From: Larkinella terrae
Lineage (GTDB): Bacteria; Bacteroidota; Bacteroidia; Cytophagales; Spirosomataceae
Assembly (NCBI RefSeq): GCF_009668025.1
Contig: NZ_WJXZ01000004.1
Coordinates: 248,001 to 312,000 of the forward strand
Length of the DNA: 64,000 nt
Direction: 5' to 3'
This document shows positions 7,167 through 52,258 of the stretch, in pieces. The notes under the pieces are model-generated. The model was not told the origin of the DNA. It ran no database searches and was given only the letters and a program-made list of their open reading frames with translations. The position numbers were made by a program, and so were the translations under genes. Position 1 is the first letter of the stretch. Each line of letters starts with the position of its first letter.

Positions 7167-9192
7167 AAACAGCTGCGGTTTTCAGGCGGTCGCGCAGTTG
7201 GAATAGCTCGTCGCGCAAGCGGGCCGCTTCCATGAAATCAAGCTCCCTGGCGGCTTTTTCCATTTTCTGCTGCGTTTCCTTGATAACCTGTTCCAGATCA
7301 TTTTTACCCATGTACTGCACCACGGGATCGGCGGCAATCCGGAGTTCTTCGGGCTCGACGTAGTATTGTTTGGCCGCCGGACGCGAGTCGGCAATGCTCG
7401 TTTGACCCATAATGGCGTCGTGCGATTTCAGTACGGTTTTGGGCGTAATGCCGTGTTCCAGGTTGTACGCCATCTGAATTTCGCGCCGTCGGTTGGTTTC
7501 GCTGATTGCTTTCTCCATCGAACCGGTGATGCGGTCGGCATACATTAAAACGCGTCCGTTGGAGTTCCGGGCGGCCCGGCCAATCGTCTGAATCAGGGAG
7601 CGAATGTCGCGCAGGAAACCTTCCTTGTCGGCGTCCATGATGGCCACCAGCGATACTTCCGGCAAATCAAGTCCTTCCCGCAGCAGGTTAACGCCCACCA
7701 ACACGTCGAAAACGCCCAGCCGCAATTCCCGCAGAATTTCAACCCGATCCAGCGCTTTCACTTCCGAGTGAATGTAGCGGCCCTTAATGCCAACCCGTTC
7801 GAGGTACTTGCTCAGTTCTTCGGCCATGCGCTTGGTCAGGGTCGTCACCAGCACCCGTTCTTTGCGCTTGACGCGCGCGTCGATTTCTTCCAGCAAATCA
7901 TCGATCTGGTTCAGGCTGGGCCGCACTTCAATAGCCGGATCGAGCAAACCGGTCGGGCGAATCAACTGCTCGACCACAACGCCTTCGCTCCGGCGCAATT
8001 CATAATCGGAGGGCGTGGCACTGACGAAAATCATTTGCCCGGCCATTTGCTCGAACTCCTGGAACGTGAGCGGGCGGTTATCCAGCGCCGACGGCAACCG
8101 AAAACCGTAGTCCACCAGCGCTTCTTTGCGGGAGCGGTCACCGCCCCACATCGCCCGGATTTGCGGCATCGTCACGTGGCTTTCGTCGATAACCGTCAGG
8201 AAGTCATCCGGAAAATAGTCGAGCAGACAGAACGGCCGCTGGCCGGGTTGCCGGCGGTCGAAGTAACGCGAATAGTTTTCGATGCCCGAACAATAGCCCA
8301 GTTCGCGCATCATTTCAATGTCGAATTCGGTTCGTTCCTTGATCCGTTCGGCTTCCATATTCCGGAATTCAGACTGGAAATAGCGAATCTGAGCGACCAG
8401 ATCATTCTGGATTTCACCGATGGCCATGTTCAGCGTATCGCGGCCCGTTACGAACAGGTTGGCCGGGAAAATGGCAATGATCCGGTCGTCGCCGATCTTT
8501 TTGCCCGAGGCCGGGTCGATGCGCTGAATGGCCTCAATTTCGTCGCCGAAGAAAACGACCCGATACGCGAAATCCGCATAACCGGGAAAAATATCGACCG
8601 TATCGCCCTTGACCCGGAAGGTTCCGCGGGTAAATTCCACTTCCGTACGGCTGTAGAGAATCTCGACTAATTTGAAGAGAAACTGGTTGCGGCTGATGGT
8701 CTCGCCCACGCCCAGCCGCACGATGCTTTTCTGGTATTCCTGGGGATTTCCGGCACCATAAATGCAGGAAACCGACGCAATCACGACAATATCCCGCCGA
8801 CCGCTCATCAGCGCCGAAACCGTGGCCAGCCGCAGTTTGTCGATCTCTTCGTTGATCGCCAGATCCTTTTCGATGTACGTATTGGTCGTCGCGATGAACG
8901 CTTCCGGCTGGTAATAATCGTAATATGAGATGAAATATTGGACGGCATTTTCTGGAAAGAACTGCTTGAACTCGCCGTAGAGCTGGGCTGCCAGCGTTTT
9001 GTTGTGGCTCAACACGAGCGTCGGGCGGTCAAGTTGGGCGATGACGTTGGCTACCGTAAACGTTTTACCTGATCCGGTAACACCCAATAACACCTGCGAA
9101 GGTTCGCCTTCCTGAATACCTTTTACCAGCTTTTCAATGGCCTGTGGCTGGTCGCCCGTCGGTTTAAATTCTGATGTCAGCTTGAAATTCAT
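7165..9192 (-). CDS. uvrB: Excinuclease ABC subunit B
   Basis: DNA helicase-like damage verifier of nucleotide excision repair, loaded by UvrA and partner of UvrC. The 675 residues match the family. Walker A GVTGSGKT is at residues 37-44; the damage-clamping beta-hairpin lies in the SYYDYYQPEAFIATTNTYIE region near residue 90; helicase motifs include VIDESHVTMPQI and the arginine-finger region TIGRAARNSNGRVLMYAD. A UVR domain that binds UvrC closes the protein (REL-DFMEAARLRDEL, about 635-665). No uvrA or uvrC nearby, as is normal. Confidence 0.98.
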   Translation of the reverse strand: MNFKLTSEFKPTGDQPQAIEKLVKGIQEGEPSQVLLGVTGSGKTFTVANVIAQLDRPTLVLSHNKTLAAQLYGEFKQFFPENAVQYFISYYDYYQPEAFIATTNTYIEKDLAINEEIDKLRLATVSALMSGRRDIVVIASVSCIYGAGNPQEYQKSIVRLGVGETISRNQFLFKLVEILYSRTEVEFTRGTFRVKGDTVDIFPGYADFAYRVVFFGDEIEAIQRIDPASGKKIGDDRIIAIFPANLFVTGRDTLNMAIGEIQNDLVAQIRYFQSEFRNMEAERIKERTEFDIEMMRELGYCSGIENYSRYFDRRQPGQRPFCLLDYFPDDFLTVIDESHVTMPQIRAMWGGDRSRKEALVDYGFRLPSALDNRPLTFQEFEQMAGQMIFVSATPSDYELRRSEGVVVEQLIRPTGLLDPAIEVRPSLNQIDDLLEEIDARVKRKERVLVTTLTKRMAEELSKYLERVGIKGRYIHSEVKALDRVEILRELRLGVFDVLVGVNLLREGLDLPEVSLVAIMDADKEGFLRDIRSLIQTIGRAARNSNGRVLMYADRITGSMEKAISETNRRREIQMAYNLEHGITPKTVLKSHDAIMGQTSIADSRPAAKQYYVEPEELRIAADPVVQYMGKNDLEQVIKETQQKMEKAARELDFMEAARLRDELFQLRDRLKTAAV

Positions 9193-9285
9193 AACAAGCT
9201 AAGATACGGAAAAAAGCGAACGGAAACAAGGACGGTTTTAAAGATTCCGACTCTTCGGGACGATTTTTAGCGTAGAAATTTACGG

Positions 9286-10872
9286 TTATTGGTACGTTCC
9301 CACCAGCGTCACAACCGATTGGGGTTCCAGCCGAAGCTGGTCGGCCCGCACGCTGGTTTTGGTCAGCGTCTGGGTGTTGGAGGTGGTGTAACTGGCAAAA
9401 TGTCCGTTCCGGATTTTGAGTCCCTGAAGGGGAGCGGTCAGGACGTCGGACGTCATATTGATGCAAACCAGCACGAGCTGTCGGCGAGCGGGATCTTTGT
9501 AAGCCGACACCATCAACTGACCCGCTTCGGCAACCGGATTCGCTACCTGGCCGATGCGAACGGCCACCCGTTTCATGCCGGGGCGGATGAAGCGGGCGTA
9601 ATTGCCAAACGCCCAGAGCTGTTTGGAATCGACCACCTGCCCGTCCAGCCGGGCGTTGTTGTGGTTTTTATACTGGCCATCGGGCCCGTTGATGTAAACC
9701 AGCCCGTCGCTGTAATTGTACGGATTGATTGCCAGCCACCATTGCCACGACGTCACGTTAGCGATGGTCAGGTCGTTGTGAATCACTTTGGCCACGTACA
9801 AACCGTAGTCGATGCCGGTGTGGCGCGGGCTGCCGTTGTATTGCCCGCAGATATCGCCCAGAACGCCAAATTCGCTTTGCCAGAGCTGCGGATTGCCCAC
9901 GGTTTTGGCGCGCTGAGCCACTTTCTGACGCATGGCCACCAGTGCCGAATCCCGGCAGGTCGTAAAGTAGCTGTGATACGCCCAGACCGGTTCTACATTG
10001 GGGAGTTTGGCGAGAGCGGTTTTTTCTGAACCAAAAAAGTAATCGAGCTGATTTCCGCGTCCACTCTCCGCTTTCTCGTAGAGGTAATTGAGCTGACCCG
10101 CTTCGCCCGTTACCACCTTTGTTTTGGATTTTCCGGCTGCCAGTTTAATCGAAAAGGCTTTCGTTATCGCCAGAATATCACCATTTTCGGCCGGTGAGCC
10201 TTCCTGATTGGCTTTGCCGTTTTTACCGGCGGTCCAGTCCCACTGCGGTTCGTTGATGGGGCTCAGGTAATCGAATTTGAAATGATCGGACACGGTGACC
10301 AGAAAATCCGCAAATGGCCCCACGGCCTCCGGTTTCAGATTCAACGCTTTGCCGCCCGGCGAAAACGCTTTGCCGTTGCGCGTCATTTGCACCGGCGGGG
10401 AATTTGTAAATCCCAGCGTGTAGCGAACACCCCGCTGGCGAGCCGCCTGTAAAAACCACTGATTTCCGGCCTGCTTGCTCCAGTCATAGTGGCCGTCCGG
10501 GGCCAGAAAACACGCTTCCCGGCGCCATTCGTCCCGGATCGCGCTGCTGTCCTGCTGCTCAAGGCTCCCCGCGCCGATGTTGACGCGCCACAACGATAAG
10601 CCAATACCTTTTGGCTGGCCGTTCGGCAACGTATCCTGACTAAACAGTAGATCGGCAATCTGATTCTTTTTCCTCTCATCGTTCCATTGCCCAATAAACT
10701 TGGCCGACCAGCAATCAGACGCACCGAAGCTGTGGATCGTTTGAAATTCCTCGTTCAGGTTAATCGTTACTGCCGAAACGGGCAGTTTTTCCGGGCCCGT
10801 AAAACCGGGTCGGTGGCTGGTGCCGGTCAATACGATCAAAAGAAGCAGGGCGGTTTGGGCAAGGAGTTTCAT
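9286..10872 (-). CDS. Secreted glycoside hydrolase family 30 protein
   Basis: Retaining glycosidase of 528 residues with an N-terminal signal peptide. It has a (beta/alpha)8 barrel followed by a C-terminal beta domain, as in GH30. The start FQTIHSFGASDCWSA is the GH30 opening strand; the acid/base is predicted as Glu208 in SPINEPQWDW and the nucleophile as Glu334 in WQSEFG. The similarity is to the branch containing endo-beta-1,6-galactanases and related enzymes, so a beta-1,6-linked polysaccharide such as arabinogalactan side chains is a guess. It stands alone, without SusC/SusD partners. Confidence 0.9.
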   Translation of the reverse strand: MKLLAQTALLLLIVLTGTSHRPGFTGPEKLPVSAVTINLNEEFQTIHSFGASDCWSAKFIGQWNDERKKNQIADLLFSQDTLPNGQPKGIGLSLWRVNIGAGSLEQQDSSAIRDEWRREACFLAPDGHYDWSKQAGNQWFLQAARQRGVRYTLGFTNSPPVQMTRNGKAFSPGGKALNLKPEAVGPFADFLVTVSDHFKFDYLSPINEPQWDWTAGKNGKANQEGSPAENGDILAITKAFSIKLAAGKSKTKVVTGEAGQLNYLYEKAESGRGNQLDYFFGSEKTALAKLPNVEPVWAYHSYFTTCRDSALVAMRQKVAQRAKTVGNPQLWQSEFGVLGDICGQYNGSPRHTGIDYGLYVAKVIHNDLTIANVTSWQWWLAINPYNYSDGLVYINGPDGQYKNHNNARLDGQVVDSKQLWAFGNYARFIRPGMKRVAVRIGQVANPVAEAGQLMVSAYKDPARRQLVLVCINMTSDVLTAPLQGLKIRNGHFASYTTSNTQTLTKTSVRADQLRLEPQSVVTLVGTYQ

Positions 10873-11106
10873 GAGGATAACGAAAAAGATAAGAAACGTC
10901 CTTTCGTTTGATTTTTACTGTTCCGGAGGATTGTGTCAGGCCGAAAGTCACTTCAATTGTTCACATCCTCAACTCCGTTTGTGTGTATACAAGTATGACG
11001 AATAAAACATAATTCGTCTCAGAGAAGGAGCATTTTTTGAGATTGCTCAACTGGTAACAGCAAATATTCATTTGACAAAATTATCTGGCAAAGTAGTTAT
11101 GGTACA

Positions 11107-11871
11107 TTAAGGTTTGGTCAAGTTGAGGTTGTGAAATAAAAACAATCGGACTGCATGGTTATTGACAAAGTTGTTGCCAGAAGCTTGTTGCTGAAACAAA
11201 TTCATGTACCCTACTTGAGCTGAAAAGCTTTTCGTGAATGGATACGAAAAGCCCACAAAAAACCGGTTTTGATCAAAGTAATTGTAAATAATCTGCTTCC
11301 CGGCGTTGACATGGATTTCATCCTGGATGACGAAATTCGGTACACCCGGTTTCGGGGCATCTCCTTTGAATGGCACCTGTACCGTAATCATGTACCGAAA
11401 GCGGTAATTAAAACCATACTCATCCGCTAAGGCATTGCCTGCGGTTTTGCGGATATAGCGTTCCTCAGCCCTGATCCATTGATTCAAGTGCAGGCGTTTA
11501 AAATGGCCCAACCAATTAATCTGTTGCCAGAGACGATGCTCAGATCTGACCAACGGGTCAGCCCCGTTCGCTGGTGGGAGTGCCGGGTAGAGACGGGCAT
11601 GCGCATAGCCAACGGTGAGTCGAACCTGGTCGGACACATAATACGTTAGACCAGGCCGAACAATCAACGTGCTCCAGCGATCGAGGAAATCGTCCGTTCG
11701 CCGGGCGTGAAGATCCATCCAGATCCCCCAGCGGTTGCTCAACCGGGTTTGGTTGAAATAGCCTAACCACGCTTGTTGTTGCGTACGGATTTGTTTGACA
11801 GGAGGAGTCTGAGCAACAAGTGAATGGCTTAGGAAAATGCTAAAAAAAAGCAGCGAAATTGCTTTCTTCAT
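11107..11871 (-). CDS. DUF2490 outer-membrane-like protein
   Basis: A protein of about 254 residues from the ATG at 11871, chosen because it begins a clean signal peptide (MKKAISLLFFSIFLSHSLVAQ); a longer reading frame upstream overlaps the chrA remnant. The body is rich in alternating hydrophobic strands (RWGIWMDLHARRTDDFLDRW, RYMITVQVPF) and ends in an aromatic residue pattern, suggesting a small beta-barrel; DUF2490 is the matching family. It begins 7 bases after the chrA fragment and may once have been its operon partner. Function unknown. Confidence 0.75.
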   Translation of the reverse strand: MKKAISLLFFSIFLSHSLVAQTPPVKQIRTQQQAWLGYFNQTRLSNRWGIWMDLHARRTDDFLDRWSTLIVRPGLTYYVSDQVRLTVGYAHARLYPALPPANGADPLVRSEHRLWQQINWLGHFKRLHLNQWIRAEERYIRKTAGNALADEYGFNYRFRYMITVQVPFKGDAPKPGVPNFVIQDEIHVNAGKQIIYNYFDQNRFFVGFSYPFTKSFSAQVGYMNLFQQQASGNNFVNNHAVRLFLFHNLNLTKP

Positions 11872-48737: not shown

Positions 48738-49184
48738 TTAAACTTTACCTTCCTCAAATTGCCGGATCGCCTTTGCAATGCGCCCTTGCCGGGTCTGCTC
48801 GGTTTTGGCGTCCTCAATACTCAGGATGTGACGTCGTTTGTTGCTGTACGACAGGCTTTCAAAAAACCGCTTCGCATCGGCGTTTTCTTCCAAGGCCCGC
48901 ACAAAATCAGCCGGGAGCGCCACTTCGCGGGGTTCGGTATCGAGTTCCAGCTCCACGTCGATGGTATCTCCGGCGGCAACGCCCGCGCCCGCCCGGTTTT
49001 CGGCACTGACGCCCAGCATAAACTTACCACCCATGACGGCCACGCTGCTCCGGTACGTGTATCCGTTGATGGTCACCCGAACCGCGGGCTTTTTGCTCGT
49101 TCCCAGACTGGCCACCACCTCCGGCGGCACCTCAACGCCCGTAGCGGTTTTCCCGTGGCTGAGGAGGGTTGTTTGGAATTTCAT
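48738..49184 (-). CDS. YdeI/OmpD-associated, DUF1905 domain protein
   Basis: A 148-residue soluble protein. The N-terminal DUF1905 barrel is KFQTTLLSHGKTATGVEVPPEVV, then VRVTINGYTYRSSVAVMGGKFMLGVS and GDTIDVELELDTEPREVALP. The C-terminal helical part FVRALEENADAKRFFESLSYSNKRRHILSIEDAKTEQTRQGRIAKAI is the YdeI/OmpD-associated domain. Some relatives protect against bacteriocins or antimicrobial peptides, but the mechanism is unclear. It converges with the SGNH gene, separated by 15 bases. Confidence 0.88.
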   Translation of the reverse strand: MKFQTTLLSHGKTATGVEVPPEVVASLGTSKKPAVRVTINGYTYRSSVAVMGGKFMLGVSAENRAGAGVAAGDTIDVELELDTEPREVALPADFVRALEENADAKRFFESLSYSNKRRHILSIEDAKTEQTRQGRIAKAIRQFEEGKV

Positions 49185-49283
49185 GGGAGTTGGGGTTAGT
49201 TTATGTAAAAAAACTGTAAAGTTGTTTGAAATGGCCTATATGTAAATTCGTTTATTCTAGAGTAATAACGATAAATATTTTCT

Positions 49284-49291
49284 TATATTTG
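49284..49291 (+). promoter_or_regulatory. -7 box of the AT-rich islet
   Basis: TATATTTG matches TAnnTTTG in full, 36 bases before the leader ORF and 132 bases before the main gene. No TTG at the -33 position. Confidence 0.45.
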
Positions 49292-49327
49292 GCATATATT
49301 ATATCCAATTTATATCAGAATTAACAA

Positions 49328-49405
49328 ATGGGCATTAAAAGAAGTAGCAATAGTAAGTATGTATCATTAAAAATGAATATGCTTAAGCTTGCAGTTATAA
49401 ACTAA
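49328..49405 (+). CDS. Tiny leader ORF (25 codons) upstream of the PD-(D/E)XK-like gene
   Basis: An ATG-started frame beginning MGIKRSSNSKYVSLK and ending LKLAVIN, basic, with its stop 18 bases before the main start at 49424. It lies between the probable promoter and the main gene, so it would be translated first. It may be a regulatory leader peptide or chance in AT-rich DNA. Confidence 0.3.
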   Translation: MGIKRSSNSKYVSLKMNMLKLAVIN

Positions 49406-49423
49406 ATATTGATCTGTCATTTA

Positions 49424-50581
49424 ATGAAAAAGACTATTCAGTTTACACTGAACAAATTTCCTACAATTCCTGATAAGCTTCGTAAGGATCCAACTATAAA
49501 TTTTGCTTGTAACGAATTCGATGTTGACTTATGTAGATTATACCATCATTATTATACGGATAGTTACAATATTAGCCCTCCTGATCCTGATCACACAAAT
49601 TTTGAGTACTTACGTTTCATGGCTTCATGTATGGATTTTAGATTTTTCGGCGAAGGGCCTGCCGCGAATACTGCAAAAAAAAGAGCATTATCAAATGAAT
49701 TAGGGCAGGCTTTTTGTAGATATTTTTTATATGAATTTTGTGGCATTACTTATTTTGCCCACATGGATAAAGTCCTTAATAAAGAAGCTCATCCCGCCTT
49801 TAACGGTTTAAAAATTAAACGCATTGTAAATGGCGATGTTCCTGATTATCTCTGTGCTAAGTCTGTTGATAAACCATTTATTGGAGAAGCAAAAGGTAGA
49901 TTTAATAGTATAAATTTTAATTCTAATGAATTCGATAAATGGAGAGAACAATTTAAGAGAATTTCTGTCAATGATAGATTTGACAGGCCTAACAAAGTAA
50001 AAGGCTATATAATAGGTACAAGATTCTGCACGGAAAATAATAGAGTAAACACTAAATCCAAAATCTTCGCCGAAGATCCTGAAACAGATGGCAAGAGAGG
50101 TCTATTAGAGGATGAAATAGGTTTAGGCAGAGGTTGTATTGCTGTGCACTATTCGAGATTAGTATATAAACTTGGATTAAATCTTATTGCCAATGCGTTA
50201 GATTTAGGATTCACTATACCACAAGATTTAAGATTTAATTTACCTGTTTGGAGATGCAACTTTGGCCCGATAGCAGGGGAGAGATTTATTGGGGGATATT
50301 TCGGTGAAGTAGAACCACATATGGTAAAGACAGACAGTAATCGTATCCATTTTCAACCCAATATATTAAAGTTGGGAGTACCTTCACATACATTTTTCGG
50401 TTTGAAGATAGAAGTATTTAGAAGCCTCAGAAAAGCCTGCTTAGGTGATTGGAGTCAACTAGTTGACCTACCACAACTACCTGATACTTATGCGAGACCA
50501 AGTAATCTTGCTTGGCTAAGAGATGGTTCTATATCAGGAGGATTAGAATTTTTCGAATTTGAAGGTTTTCAACAAATTTAA
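49424..50581 (+). CDS. AT-rich orphan gene with a PD-(D/E)XK nuclease-like motif
   Basis: A 385-residue protein of unknown family. DVPDYLCAKSVDKPFIGEAKG near residue 145 fits the restriction-endonuclease fold signature: Asp in PD, 13 residues, then E-A-K. A following helix has KWREQFKRI, whose Gln position is often conserved in such nucleases. No signal peptide, membrane helix or helicase domain. The N-terminal third is Cys/Tyr/His-rich (VDLCRLYHHYY). The gene is far richer in AT than its surroundings and uses different codons (many AAA, TTA, ATA), a sign of transfer. The ATG at 49424 is preferred to a TTG five codons earlier. It may be a defence or effector nuclease; this is inference from one motif. 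Confidence 0.5.
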   Translation: MKKTIQFTLNKFPTIPDKLRKDPTINFACNEFDVDLCRLYHHYYTDSYNISPPDPDHTNFEYLRFMASCMDFRFFGEGPAANTAKKRALSNELGQAFCRYFLYEFCGITYFAHMDKVLNKEAHPAFNGLKIKRIVNGDVPDYLCAKSVDKPFIGEAKGRFNSINFNSNEFDKWREQFKRISVNDRFDRPNKVKGYIIGTRFCTENNRVNTKSKIFAEDPETDGKRGLLEDEIGLGRGCIAVHYSRLVYKLGLNLIANALDLGFTIPQDLRFNLPVWRCNFGPIAGERFIGGYFGEVEPHMVKTDSNRIHFQPNILKLGVPSHTFFGLKIEVFRSLRKACLGDWSQLVDLPQLPDTYARPSNLAWLRDGSISGGLEFFEFEGFQQI

Positions 50582-50682
50582 AATTATTGTTCTAATACAG
50601 CCTTAATGTAGCTTTTACATTGATTTTGGAAATAACATAAAAGAAGCAAATATAGATTTAATAATACACTAAGTTCTTCTCA

Positions 50683-51297
50683 TCAAAACGTAATTCCATC
50701 CTCCCTCAACAATTCCGCCAGATTCAGCTTACAACCCTCCAAAACCGTCACATCATCGGCCCAGGTTTGCGTGATCCAAGGTTCGTTGCGCCCGGCTACG
50801 AATACCTTCCGGGCTGCGGAGGTAATCCAGATGACGCGTTCGACGCCGAAGGCCAGCAGTTTATCGGTTTTGTCCCAAATGTAGTCCTGATCACCGGCTG
50901 CGTAGTCTTCAACGTCCACTTTGATGTCAAATTCTATGACTACTTTGGGCGGTATTTTGAAATACTTTCCGTGGAGTTCGGTAATGGTATTCCGGTCAAA
51001 AATAGCAATATCGTTCGCCGTGCGGCCCAGATTCGGCATCAGCAAACCGACTTCGTTCGTCGTTAGTAAATAGGCTTTACGGTTGATGTGGGTATATAAA
51101 TGGCCCAACAGAGCCGCCACGACCGCTCCCTGAATGTCGCTGCAACCCATAATTTCTTCCGGTGTTTTGCGTCCCGCCAGCACCTCTTTGTATCCTTTGT
51201 AATACAAGGTGCGTCGGCCCAATTTCTCATAAATCAGGTAATCGGGCACTTTTGGATTCCGGCGTTTGATCTGCTCTTTAATGACAATCGTTCCCAT
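50683..51297 (-). CDS. Uma2 family endonuclease-like protein
   Basis: A protein of 204 residues from ATG 51297 (a longer frame has no support). Uma2 (DUF820) proteins share the restriction-endonuclease fold: here NDIAIFDRNT supplies the Asp of the site, and PKVVIEFDIKVD the E-x-D/K strand, where the usual Lys pattern E-x-x-S is altered. YTHINRKAYLLTTNEVGLLMPN precedes it as usual. The family is expanded in Cytophagales and cyanobacteria; cellular role unknown. It converges on the AT-rich PD-(D/E)XK-like gene. Confidence 0.85.
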   Translation of the reverse strand: MGTIVIKEQIKRRNPKVPDYLIYEKLGRRTLYYKGYKEVLAGRKTPEEIMGCSDIQGAVVAALLGHLYTHINRKAYLLTTNEVGLLMPNLGRTANDIAIFDRNTITELHGKYFKIPPKVVIEFDIKVDVEDYAAGDQDYIWDKTDKLLAFGVERVIWITSAARKVFVAGRNEPWITQTWADDVTVLEGCKLNLAELLREDGITF

Positions 51298-51349
51298 TGT
51301 TGAGTCTGCGTTAACAAAGCCAAGATACGAAATCCCGGTCAGTTGACCC

Positions 51350-52258
51350 TCACTCCAGCGCAATCTTCGCCTGAATCACCGGGTGTTCGCCCAGGCCGAC
51401 CCGCGAGAGGGGCGCGTTGCGTCGCCAGGTGCCGCCGTTGATGCGCTCCCAGTAGGTCGCCGTGCGGAGTTCGCGATTGAACGCCAGGTATTGCCCGAAA
51501 CACTCCCGCTCATTTTTCTGACCATCCGGCATTTTGAACGAAGTGGAGAATTTGTACTTGGCTTCGTCGGTCGGGAGCCATTCCATCGCGATGAATAAGC
51601 CTTCTTTCGGAAACGCAATCTGGTAGTGCGACAGATCGACTTCGCACCAGCTGTTTCCCCGGCGGGCGGATGTTACCACGCTCTGCGGCAGCAGATCCGC
51701 CCCCGGTTCGCCGTCCGTGATGGCATACACGCGCACCCGGAAAGGCGCCGTCGGCACACCCCCGCGCGCAATCAGGTACGAAACCCGGTGCAGATAACCC
51801 TGAATTCCATTAGTGTTGCGGACGTGCAGAGCAAATTCGATGTTCCGGCCCGAACAGTTTCCCCAGACAATCGGCGCCCGCTTCCGGGTGGCTCCCACCG
51901 TTGCAACGCGCGGTTTTCGTCCCCGAACTACAATTTCGGTCAGGACATTCGGCTTCGCGTGCAGCCGGTAAGCCGTGGATTCGGACAAACCGGTCAGCGG
52001 CAACAGCAAATTTTCAAAGCCAACGCAGCTGATTAGGAGCGTATCGATGCCTGCCGGAATCGTAGCCGAAAACCGGCCCTGCGCATCGGCGTAGGTACCA
52101 AACCGGTGCTGGGGTTCCGTAATCAGCGCGTAAGGAACCGGCTGTTCACCGGTTTCGATCAGCACCTGGCCTTTCAAAGTCGTTTGAGCAAACACATAAA
52201 AAGAGTTGAATAAAAAGACAATCAGAATCAGAAACCGGCAGCGGGCGTTTGTATACAT
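51350..52258 (-). CDS. Secreted carboxypeptidase-regulatory-like domain protein
   Basis: A 302-residue protein with a signal peptide (FLILIVFLFNSFYVFAQ) and an N-terminal CarboxypepD_reg-like domain (TTLKGQVLIETGEQPVPYALI ... GRFSATIPAGIDTLLISCVGF). These domains usually head TonB-dependent receptors, but here a beta-rich domain of about 190 residues follows instead (GRNIEFALHVRN ... YQIAFPKEGLFIAMEWLP). It is probably periplasmic or on the outer membrane. The stop is 52 bases before the Uma2 gene on the same strand. Confidence 0.75.
   Translation of the reverse strand: MYTNARCRFLILIVFLFNSFYVFAQTTLKGQVLIETGEQPVPYALITEPQHRFGTYADAQGRFSATIPAGIDTLLISCVGFENLLLPLTGLSESTAYRLHAKPNVLTEIVVRGRKPRVATVGATRKRAPIVWGNCSGRNIEFALHVRNTNGIQGYLHRVSYLIARGGVPTAPFRVRVYAITDGEPGADLLPQSVVTSARRGNSWCEVDLSHYQIAFPKEGLFIAMEWLPTDEAKYKFSTSFKMPDGQKNERECFGQYLAFNRELRTATYWERINGGTWRRNAPLSRVGLGEHPVIQAKIALE

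Follow-up and report, generated by a model that had tools for sequence, protein, structure and literature searches.

A rare accessory gene of Larkinella terrae encodes a candidate stand-alone PD-(D/E)XK nuclease

An AT-rich gene between two genes of the opposite strand

The window, by which we mean the whole 64,000-nucleotide stretch of Larkinella terrae DNA that was analysed, contains a gene, here called X, which a preliminary description had singled out as an orphan sharply richer in AT than its neighbours. The open reading frame list places its ATG at 49424 and its stop codon at 50579-50581, giving a protein of 385 amino acids; a TTG five codons upstream of the ATG is a possible alternative start. 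The features of the locus are as follows:

48738-49184, minus strand: gene with DUF1905 and OmdA domains (YdeI-type; Pfam match), flanking X
49202-50681, no strand: segment differing from the sister genome G402 (flank matches 89% and 91%)
49284-49291, plus strand: promoter-like box TATATTTG, a consensus fit not beyond chance
49424-50581, plus strand: gene X, candidate stand-alone PD-(D/E)XK nuclease (open reading frame, alignment of 20 relatives)
49688-49744, plus strand: residues 89-107, LSNELGQAFCRYFLYEFCG, proposed helix A, with G94 and R99 invariant (21/21 rows)
49835-49858, plus strand: residues 138-145, DVPDYLCA, proposed strand with putative catalytic D141; P140 and D141 invariant (21/21)
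49871-49897, plus strand: residues 150-158, KPFIGEAKG, proposed strand with putative catalytic E155-A-K157; E155, A156 and K157 invariant (21/21)
49922-49972, plus strand: residues 167-183, proposed helix B, with Q176 invariant (21/21)
50069-50581, plus strand: residues 216-385, a possible sensor or specificity part, with D218 and P219 invariant (21/21)
50683-51363, minus strand: Uma2-like gene (match under the Pfam cut-off), flanking X

The described AT-richness is borne out by base composition: X has a G+C content of 0.347 overall and 0.24 at third codon positions, versus 0.49-0.58 and 0.58-0.68 for the eight other window genes compared. Measured against 1158-bp stretches of the window taken at 50-bp steps (mean 0.520, s.d. 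0.045), X lies 3.8 s.d. below the mean (34.7% versus 52.0%), and at this sampling the stretches of lower G+C all overlap X and its upstream region. Both neighbours are on the opposite strand and X therefore stands alone. The neighbour called YdeI-type indeed matches DUF1905 and OmdA; the one called Uma2 lies on the side named and does match that family (E = 1.5e-4), but at 21.7 bits, below the Pfam cut-off of 27.

X had also been credited with a promoter-like box of its own. The -7 consensus of Bacteroidota is TAnnTTTG, and TATATTTG fits it. The box is thus present, but at chance level: 0.22 matches are expected in the 223 bp upstream of X, at least one match arises in 21% of mononucleotide shuffles of these 223 bp (P ~0.21), and no TTTG at the usual -33 spacing was seen when the upstream sequence was read by eye. 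Because the box is within chance and lacks a TTTG at -33, it does not establish a promoter of X. A 25-codon open reading frame at 49328-49405, between the box and X, shows no sign of translation by eye.

Conserved residues and likeness to PD-(D/E)XK nucleases

We aligned the window protein with 20 relatives (21 rows, identity to the window protein down to 17%). Loci carrying relatives are given by L numbers: L007, L017, L018, L055 and L060, which are broken, cut or fragmentary, were left out of the alignments, L008 was dropped as a duplicate in gene content of L014, and the row for L004 starts inside its open reading frame. Eleven columns are invariant: G94, R99, P140, D141, E155, A156, K157, Q176, K193, D218 and P219. 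The nuclease-like motif reported for X, PD followed by 13 residues and E-A-K, is present exactly (P140-D141-x13-E155-A-K157), and D141, E155 and K157 are kept in every row; a loss of these residues among homologues, proposed earlier as a refutation, was therefore not seen. Nucleotide differences fall mostly at third codon positions, the pattern that purifying selection on a protein produces: for the first, second and third positions they amount to 5.1, 2.3 and 18.2% between L002 and L014, and to 34, 21 and 57% between the window and L010.

The PD-(D/E)XK core consists of a hydrophobic strand, PD, a hydrophobic strand, E-x-K and a helix with Gln, and the superfamily is defined by a conserved Asp and (D/E)-x-K set on an alpha-beta-beta-beta-alpha-beta core. 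X appears to match this pattern around its motif: a predicted hydrophobic strand, PD, a second hydrophobic strand, E-A-K-G and a Gln helix, and all homologues aligned keep the Asp and (D/E)-x-K set (21/21 rows). Of the Gln helix noticed earlier, the Gln-containing stretch stands, with Q176 invariant, while the helix itself is a prediction.

Library searches returned little. With E values up to 10 allowed, the X protein matches nothing in Pfam, NCBIfam or PADLOC; PHROGs gave only two matches, both weak (E 0.038 and 0.27). Searching 15 family members by hmmscan gave no Pfam family for 14 at E up to 1, and for the remaining one a chance-level match to AvrPto (E 0.13); PADLOC-DB 2.0.0 contained no match for X or for the 15 members. 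Single-sequence and profile searches of the PDB gave chance matches only and no nuclease, and no description of the family was found in a literature search covering open-licence papers.

VRR_NUC (PF08774) was chosen for comparison because its motif is alike, which makes it a biased choice of family; it has no match in X at E up to 10 and none in the 15 members at E up to 1. A profile of the X core (residues 78-215) was aligned with 29 VRR_NUC domains, taken from 29 of 30 fetched loci and excised around a short motif pattern. The match is weak (score 21.7, P 0.0045, probability 7.7%) and aligns PD on PD and EAK on EVK. None of 300 column permutations of the core reached 21.7 (maximum 21.0, mean 11.6), the best coming within 0.7 of the true score, and the reversed core, the N-terminal part and the C-terminal part scored 14.0, 12.2 and 10.4. 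Clade II of the family (see below) scored 20.5 alone; clade I, to which the window protein belongs, scored 12.6 alone, within the null.

This profile match agrees weakly with a PD-(D/E)XK fold. We infer that fold from the motif, its conservation and the VRR_NUC match taken together, and X is very probably an uncatalogued candidate member of the superfamily. That X is not a nuclease, its conserved residues serving some other fold or a non-cutting nucleic-acid binder, we regard as very unlikely: the weak VRR_NUC match does rest mainly on the motif, as this explanation would have it, but the D, E-x-K and Q set is invariant whereas most of the protein is not, only 11 columns being so across 21 rows.

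A rare and patchy family

Single-protein scans of genome contigs and viral contigs with X gave no match, and phages gave none for the window protein or for L005. A tblastn search of plasmids with X found six relatives, and a profile of three members found ten genomic loci, the best in Algoriphagus at ~60% identity. Two relatives occur on viral contigs, one of which (L008) has the same genes as the genomic locus L014, and a plasmid search with a clade II member returned 34 records. Besides the query genome, the single protein was found in none of 394 genomes of the class and none of 58 relatives. Profile searches, in which the best 4 or 5 candidates per genome were scored, found the family besides the respective query genome in 0/394 genomes of the phylum, 2/384 of the class of L016 and 0/368 of the class of L011. 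The X family is rare and patchy.

This distribution bears on the idea that X serves as a nuclease in DNA repair or housekeeping. PD-(D/E)XK members include repair enzymes, and VRR_NUC proteins are present in 40 of the 59 genomes of the relatives set; none of the other 58 genomes, however, has X, the composition of which is strongly atypical, and we consider a housekeeping role highly improbable.

A FastTree tree of 20 rows, from which L062 was left out, has two clades. Clade I holds the window protein and those of Algoriphagus, Halomonas, Ensifer, Roseibium, a Spartobacteria MAG, Janthinobacterium, Agrobacterium, Pararhodobacter, Szabonella and Mesorhizobium; the named members of clade II are Alphaproteobacteria. 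Clade I spans phyla, a sign of horizontal movement.

Broken or fragmentary copies of the family lie at L007 7776-8892, L017 8732-9903, L060 4426-5007 and L062 4501-5277 and among plasmid matches H37-H39, a pattern typical of accessory genes that are gained and lost.

A shared cargo slot and the mobility of X

In the best-matching congener, G402, a low-G+C gene of DUF5677 type, now split, takes the place of X. A slot anchored by gcvT was seen in the fetched stretches of seven of eight congeners, bounded by the gcvT/CBP genes on one side and by the next conserved genes on the other (L040-L044), and holds other cargo in five of the seven. Besides that of G402, these cargoes are a 410-aa gene of 27% G+C without a Pfam match in G400 (L041 2883-4115), a DUF488 gene with a partner in G399, a HigB gene with the gene after it in G397, and HepT in G396; G395 and G398 have no low-G+C cargo in the slot, and in the fetched stretch of G401 the slot was not found. 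X is one of several alternative small cargoes at a site shared by the genus, and in two of the alternatives, HigB and HepT, the domains are toxin-like. A search for repeats at the borders of the window insert found none.

Plasmids carry relatives of X, as do a prophage and a viral contig, and one relative is flanked by two attC-like sites. This last case is L011, where a DUF4238 gene and X (8849-11254) lie between the two sites: by the attC rule, one site reads GCATAAC...GTTATAC, while the other ends in GTTGAGC, its far end one base off the rule. This position suggests that X probably moves there as integron cargo. By eye, a stretch resembling a fragment of an integron integrase is visible at L011 4049-4408, upstream of the pair.

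X might itself be the agent of this movement, as a homing or TnsA-like endonuclease, selfish or linked to transfer, that mobilises its own gene or cassette. Its movement as a single gene among unrelated slots, the integrases near L019, L058 and L059 and the pair of attC-like sites around it in L011 are consistent with such a role, but no repeats bound the window insert, other genes fill the same slot without X, and elsewhere X rides on plasmids, in a prophage and probably in a cassette, all of which have machinery of their own. We find the selfish role quite unlikely, and read X as what the observations describe: a horizontally acquired single accessory gene of a rare family.

Defence genes near clade I members

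Homologues in defence islands had been named as support for the nuclease reading. Within 10 kb of X, a known defence gene is present in seven of the 11 distinct clade I loci besides the window (excluding L018, a fragment). L002 has annotated CBASS genes and AbiH, with a Cap15-like match just below the cut-off; L003 has ZacA and ZacC; and L010 has a NotI-type enzyme followed by a D12 methyltransferase. L011 has a retron III-A PRTase with a reverse transcriptase (RVT_1), presumably the same gene as the RT_III-A match of the batch search below, and DUF4238. ABC-3C domains lie near X in L014, the setting of which looks like a prophage, judging by eye from terminase- and portal-like genes. L016 has Tmn and PDC-S21, and L017 has Aga_Nuclease ~1.8 kb downstream of its broken X, with a weak REase_II match (E 5.8e-8). 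Among the neighbours tested in L012, L013, L015 and L019 (part of each locus, one neighbour in L015) there was no defence match; L019 adjoins an integrase. The gene following X in L014 (11661-13016) resembles ParB or a DNA methyltransferase by eye.

In a batch search, open reading frames of at least 150 aa within 6.5 kb were taken from six of eight loci (L011, L012, L013, L016, L017 and L019), leaving out L010, whose contig is too short, and the fragment L018. Among the matches listed for these 53 neighbours, retron III-A, Aga_Nuclease, Tmn and PDC-S21 reached E 1e-50 or better, and strong defence matches fell, again among the matches listed, in three of the six loci (L011, L016 and L017). As a control, 59 proteins encoded on those contigs at a distance of at least ~50 kb were searched, and their matches were confined to mad3 (three), mad8 (two) and ATPase-Toprim (one). 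Aga_Nuclease and PDC-S21 were assigned to their loci after the batch, which raised the clade I count from six to seven. By guilt by association, which does not prove it, these neighbours suggest a defence role for X.

HipBA genes beside some clade II members

In clade II, the gene order is HTH-HipA-X in L005, L006 and L062, with a 4-base overlap of HipA and X as annotated in L005 and L062; in L006 the overlap is 4 bases only if X begins at TTG 7773, its annotated start being 7821. X follows an AriA-like ATPase in L009, a viral contig, and an abortive-infection gene in L057. From their gene order, the HTH-HipA-X sets may form a three-part HipBA-nuclease module carried by alphaproteobacterial plasmids; the main text of a HipA phylogeny paper (PMC8262856) contains neither "nuclease" nor "third gene".

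This order and these overlaps, along with the toxin-like HigB and HepT in the congeners' copies of the slot, would also fit a toxin-antitoxin or addiction set with X as its toxin-like effector, kept inactive by a regulator (in part of clade II, HipB-HipA) and killing or arresting the cell when freed. We think this unlikely, since no HipBA lies beside X at the loci examined in the window's clade, no HTH or HipA gene is in an operon with the window copy, which is alone, and no antitoxin-like small gene is fixed beside X.

Proposed function

We consider it reasonably probable that X is a horizontally acquired, single-chain, metal-dependent PD-(D/E)XK nuclease that serves as an anti-phage or anti-plasmid effector without a dedicated partner. 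In such a nuclease D141, E155 and K157, assisted by Q176, would coordinate metal and cleave nucleic acid, DNA being the probable substrate. X would act on foreign nucleic acid, and the C-terminal 170 residues, with the invariant D218-P219, may recognise either a trigger or some feature that is modified or specific to phages. With no methyltransferase fixed in the family, X must be triggered or modification-dependent if host DNA is to be spared; it might thus spare host DNA without a methyltransferase, working as type IV restriction enzymes do or as an abortive nuclease that needs a trigger. Of the original suggestion of a defence, restriction or effector nuclease, defence or effector is the best reading; restriction is not supported, no methyltransferase being fixed beside X. 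On present sequence evidence, X is probably a defence gene.

A bolder proposal, which we offer as an outside chance, is that the family comprises new defence nucleases of two designs, one self-contained and the other gated by HipB-HipA or by a phage AriA-like ATPase. If true, the target under control of the HipA kinase or its repressor would be a DNA-cutting effector, in place of translation or in addition to it; the family in any case links HipBA modules to a candidate nuclease, a link that can be tested. Defence catalogues lean on operons with recognisable domains, and single-gene nucleases of the kind proposed here are easily missed: no library searched has a model for this family, whose carriers include plasmids, a prophage and probably an integron. 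The cargo slot of the genus is a place to seek further small systems in Bacteroidota.

Comparison with known systems

Type II restriction-modification systems differ from X, which has no methyltransferase beside it in the window and none fixed in the family; the D12 methyltransferase of L010 pairs with its own NotI-type enzyme and not with X. As for HipBA modules, HTH and HipA genes precede X in some clade II members (L005, L006 and L062), but X is a third gene, neither HipS nor HipT, and the window copy is without HipBA. With VRR_NUC (PF08774) X shares G-x-PD, ~13 residues, E-x-K and then Gln. Lys and Gln are farther apart in X (19 residues) than in VRR_NUC, and the VRR_NUC matches in the relatives' genomes are mostly open frames of ~560-600 aa, versus 385 aa for X. 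Type IV (modification-dependent) restriction enzymes are nucleases without a methyltransferase of their own: X differs from them in that no known recognition domain was detected in it, and is like them in that it, too, stands without its own methyltransferase.
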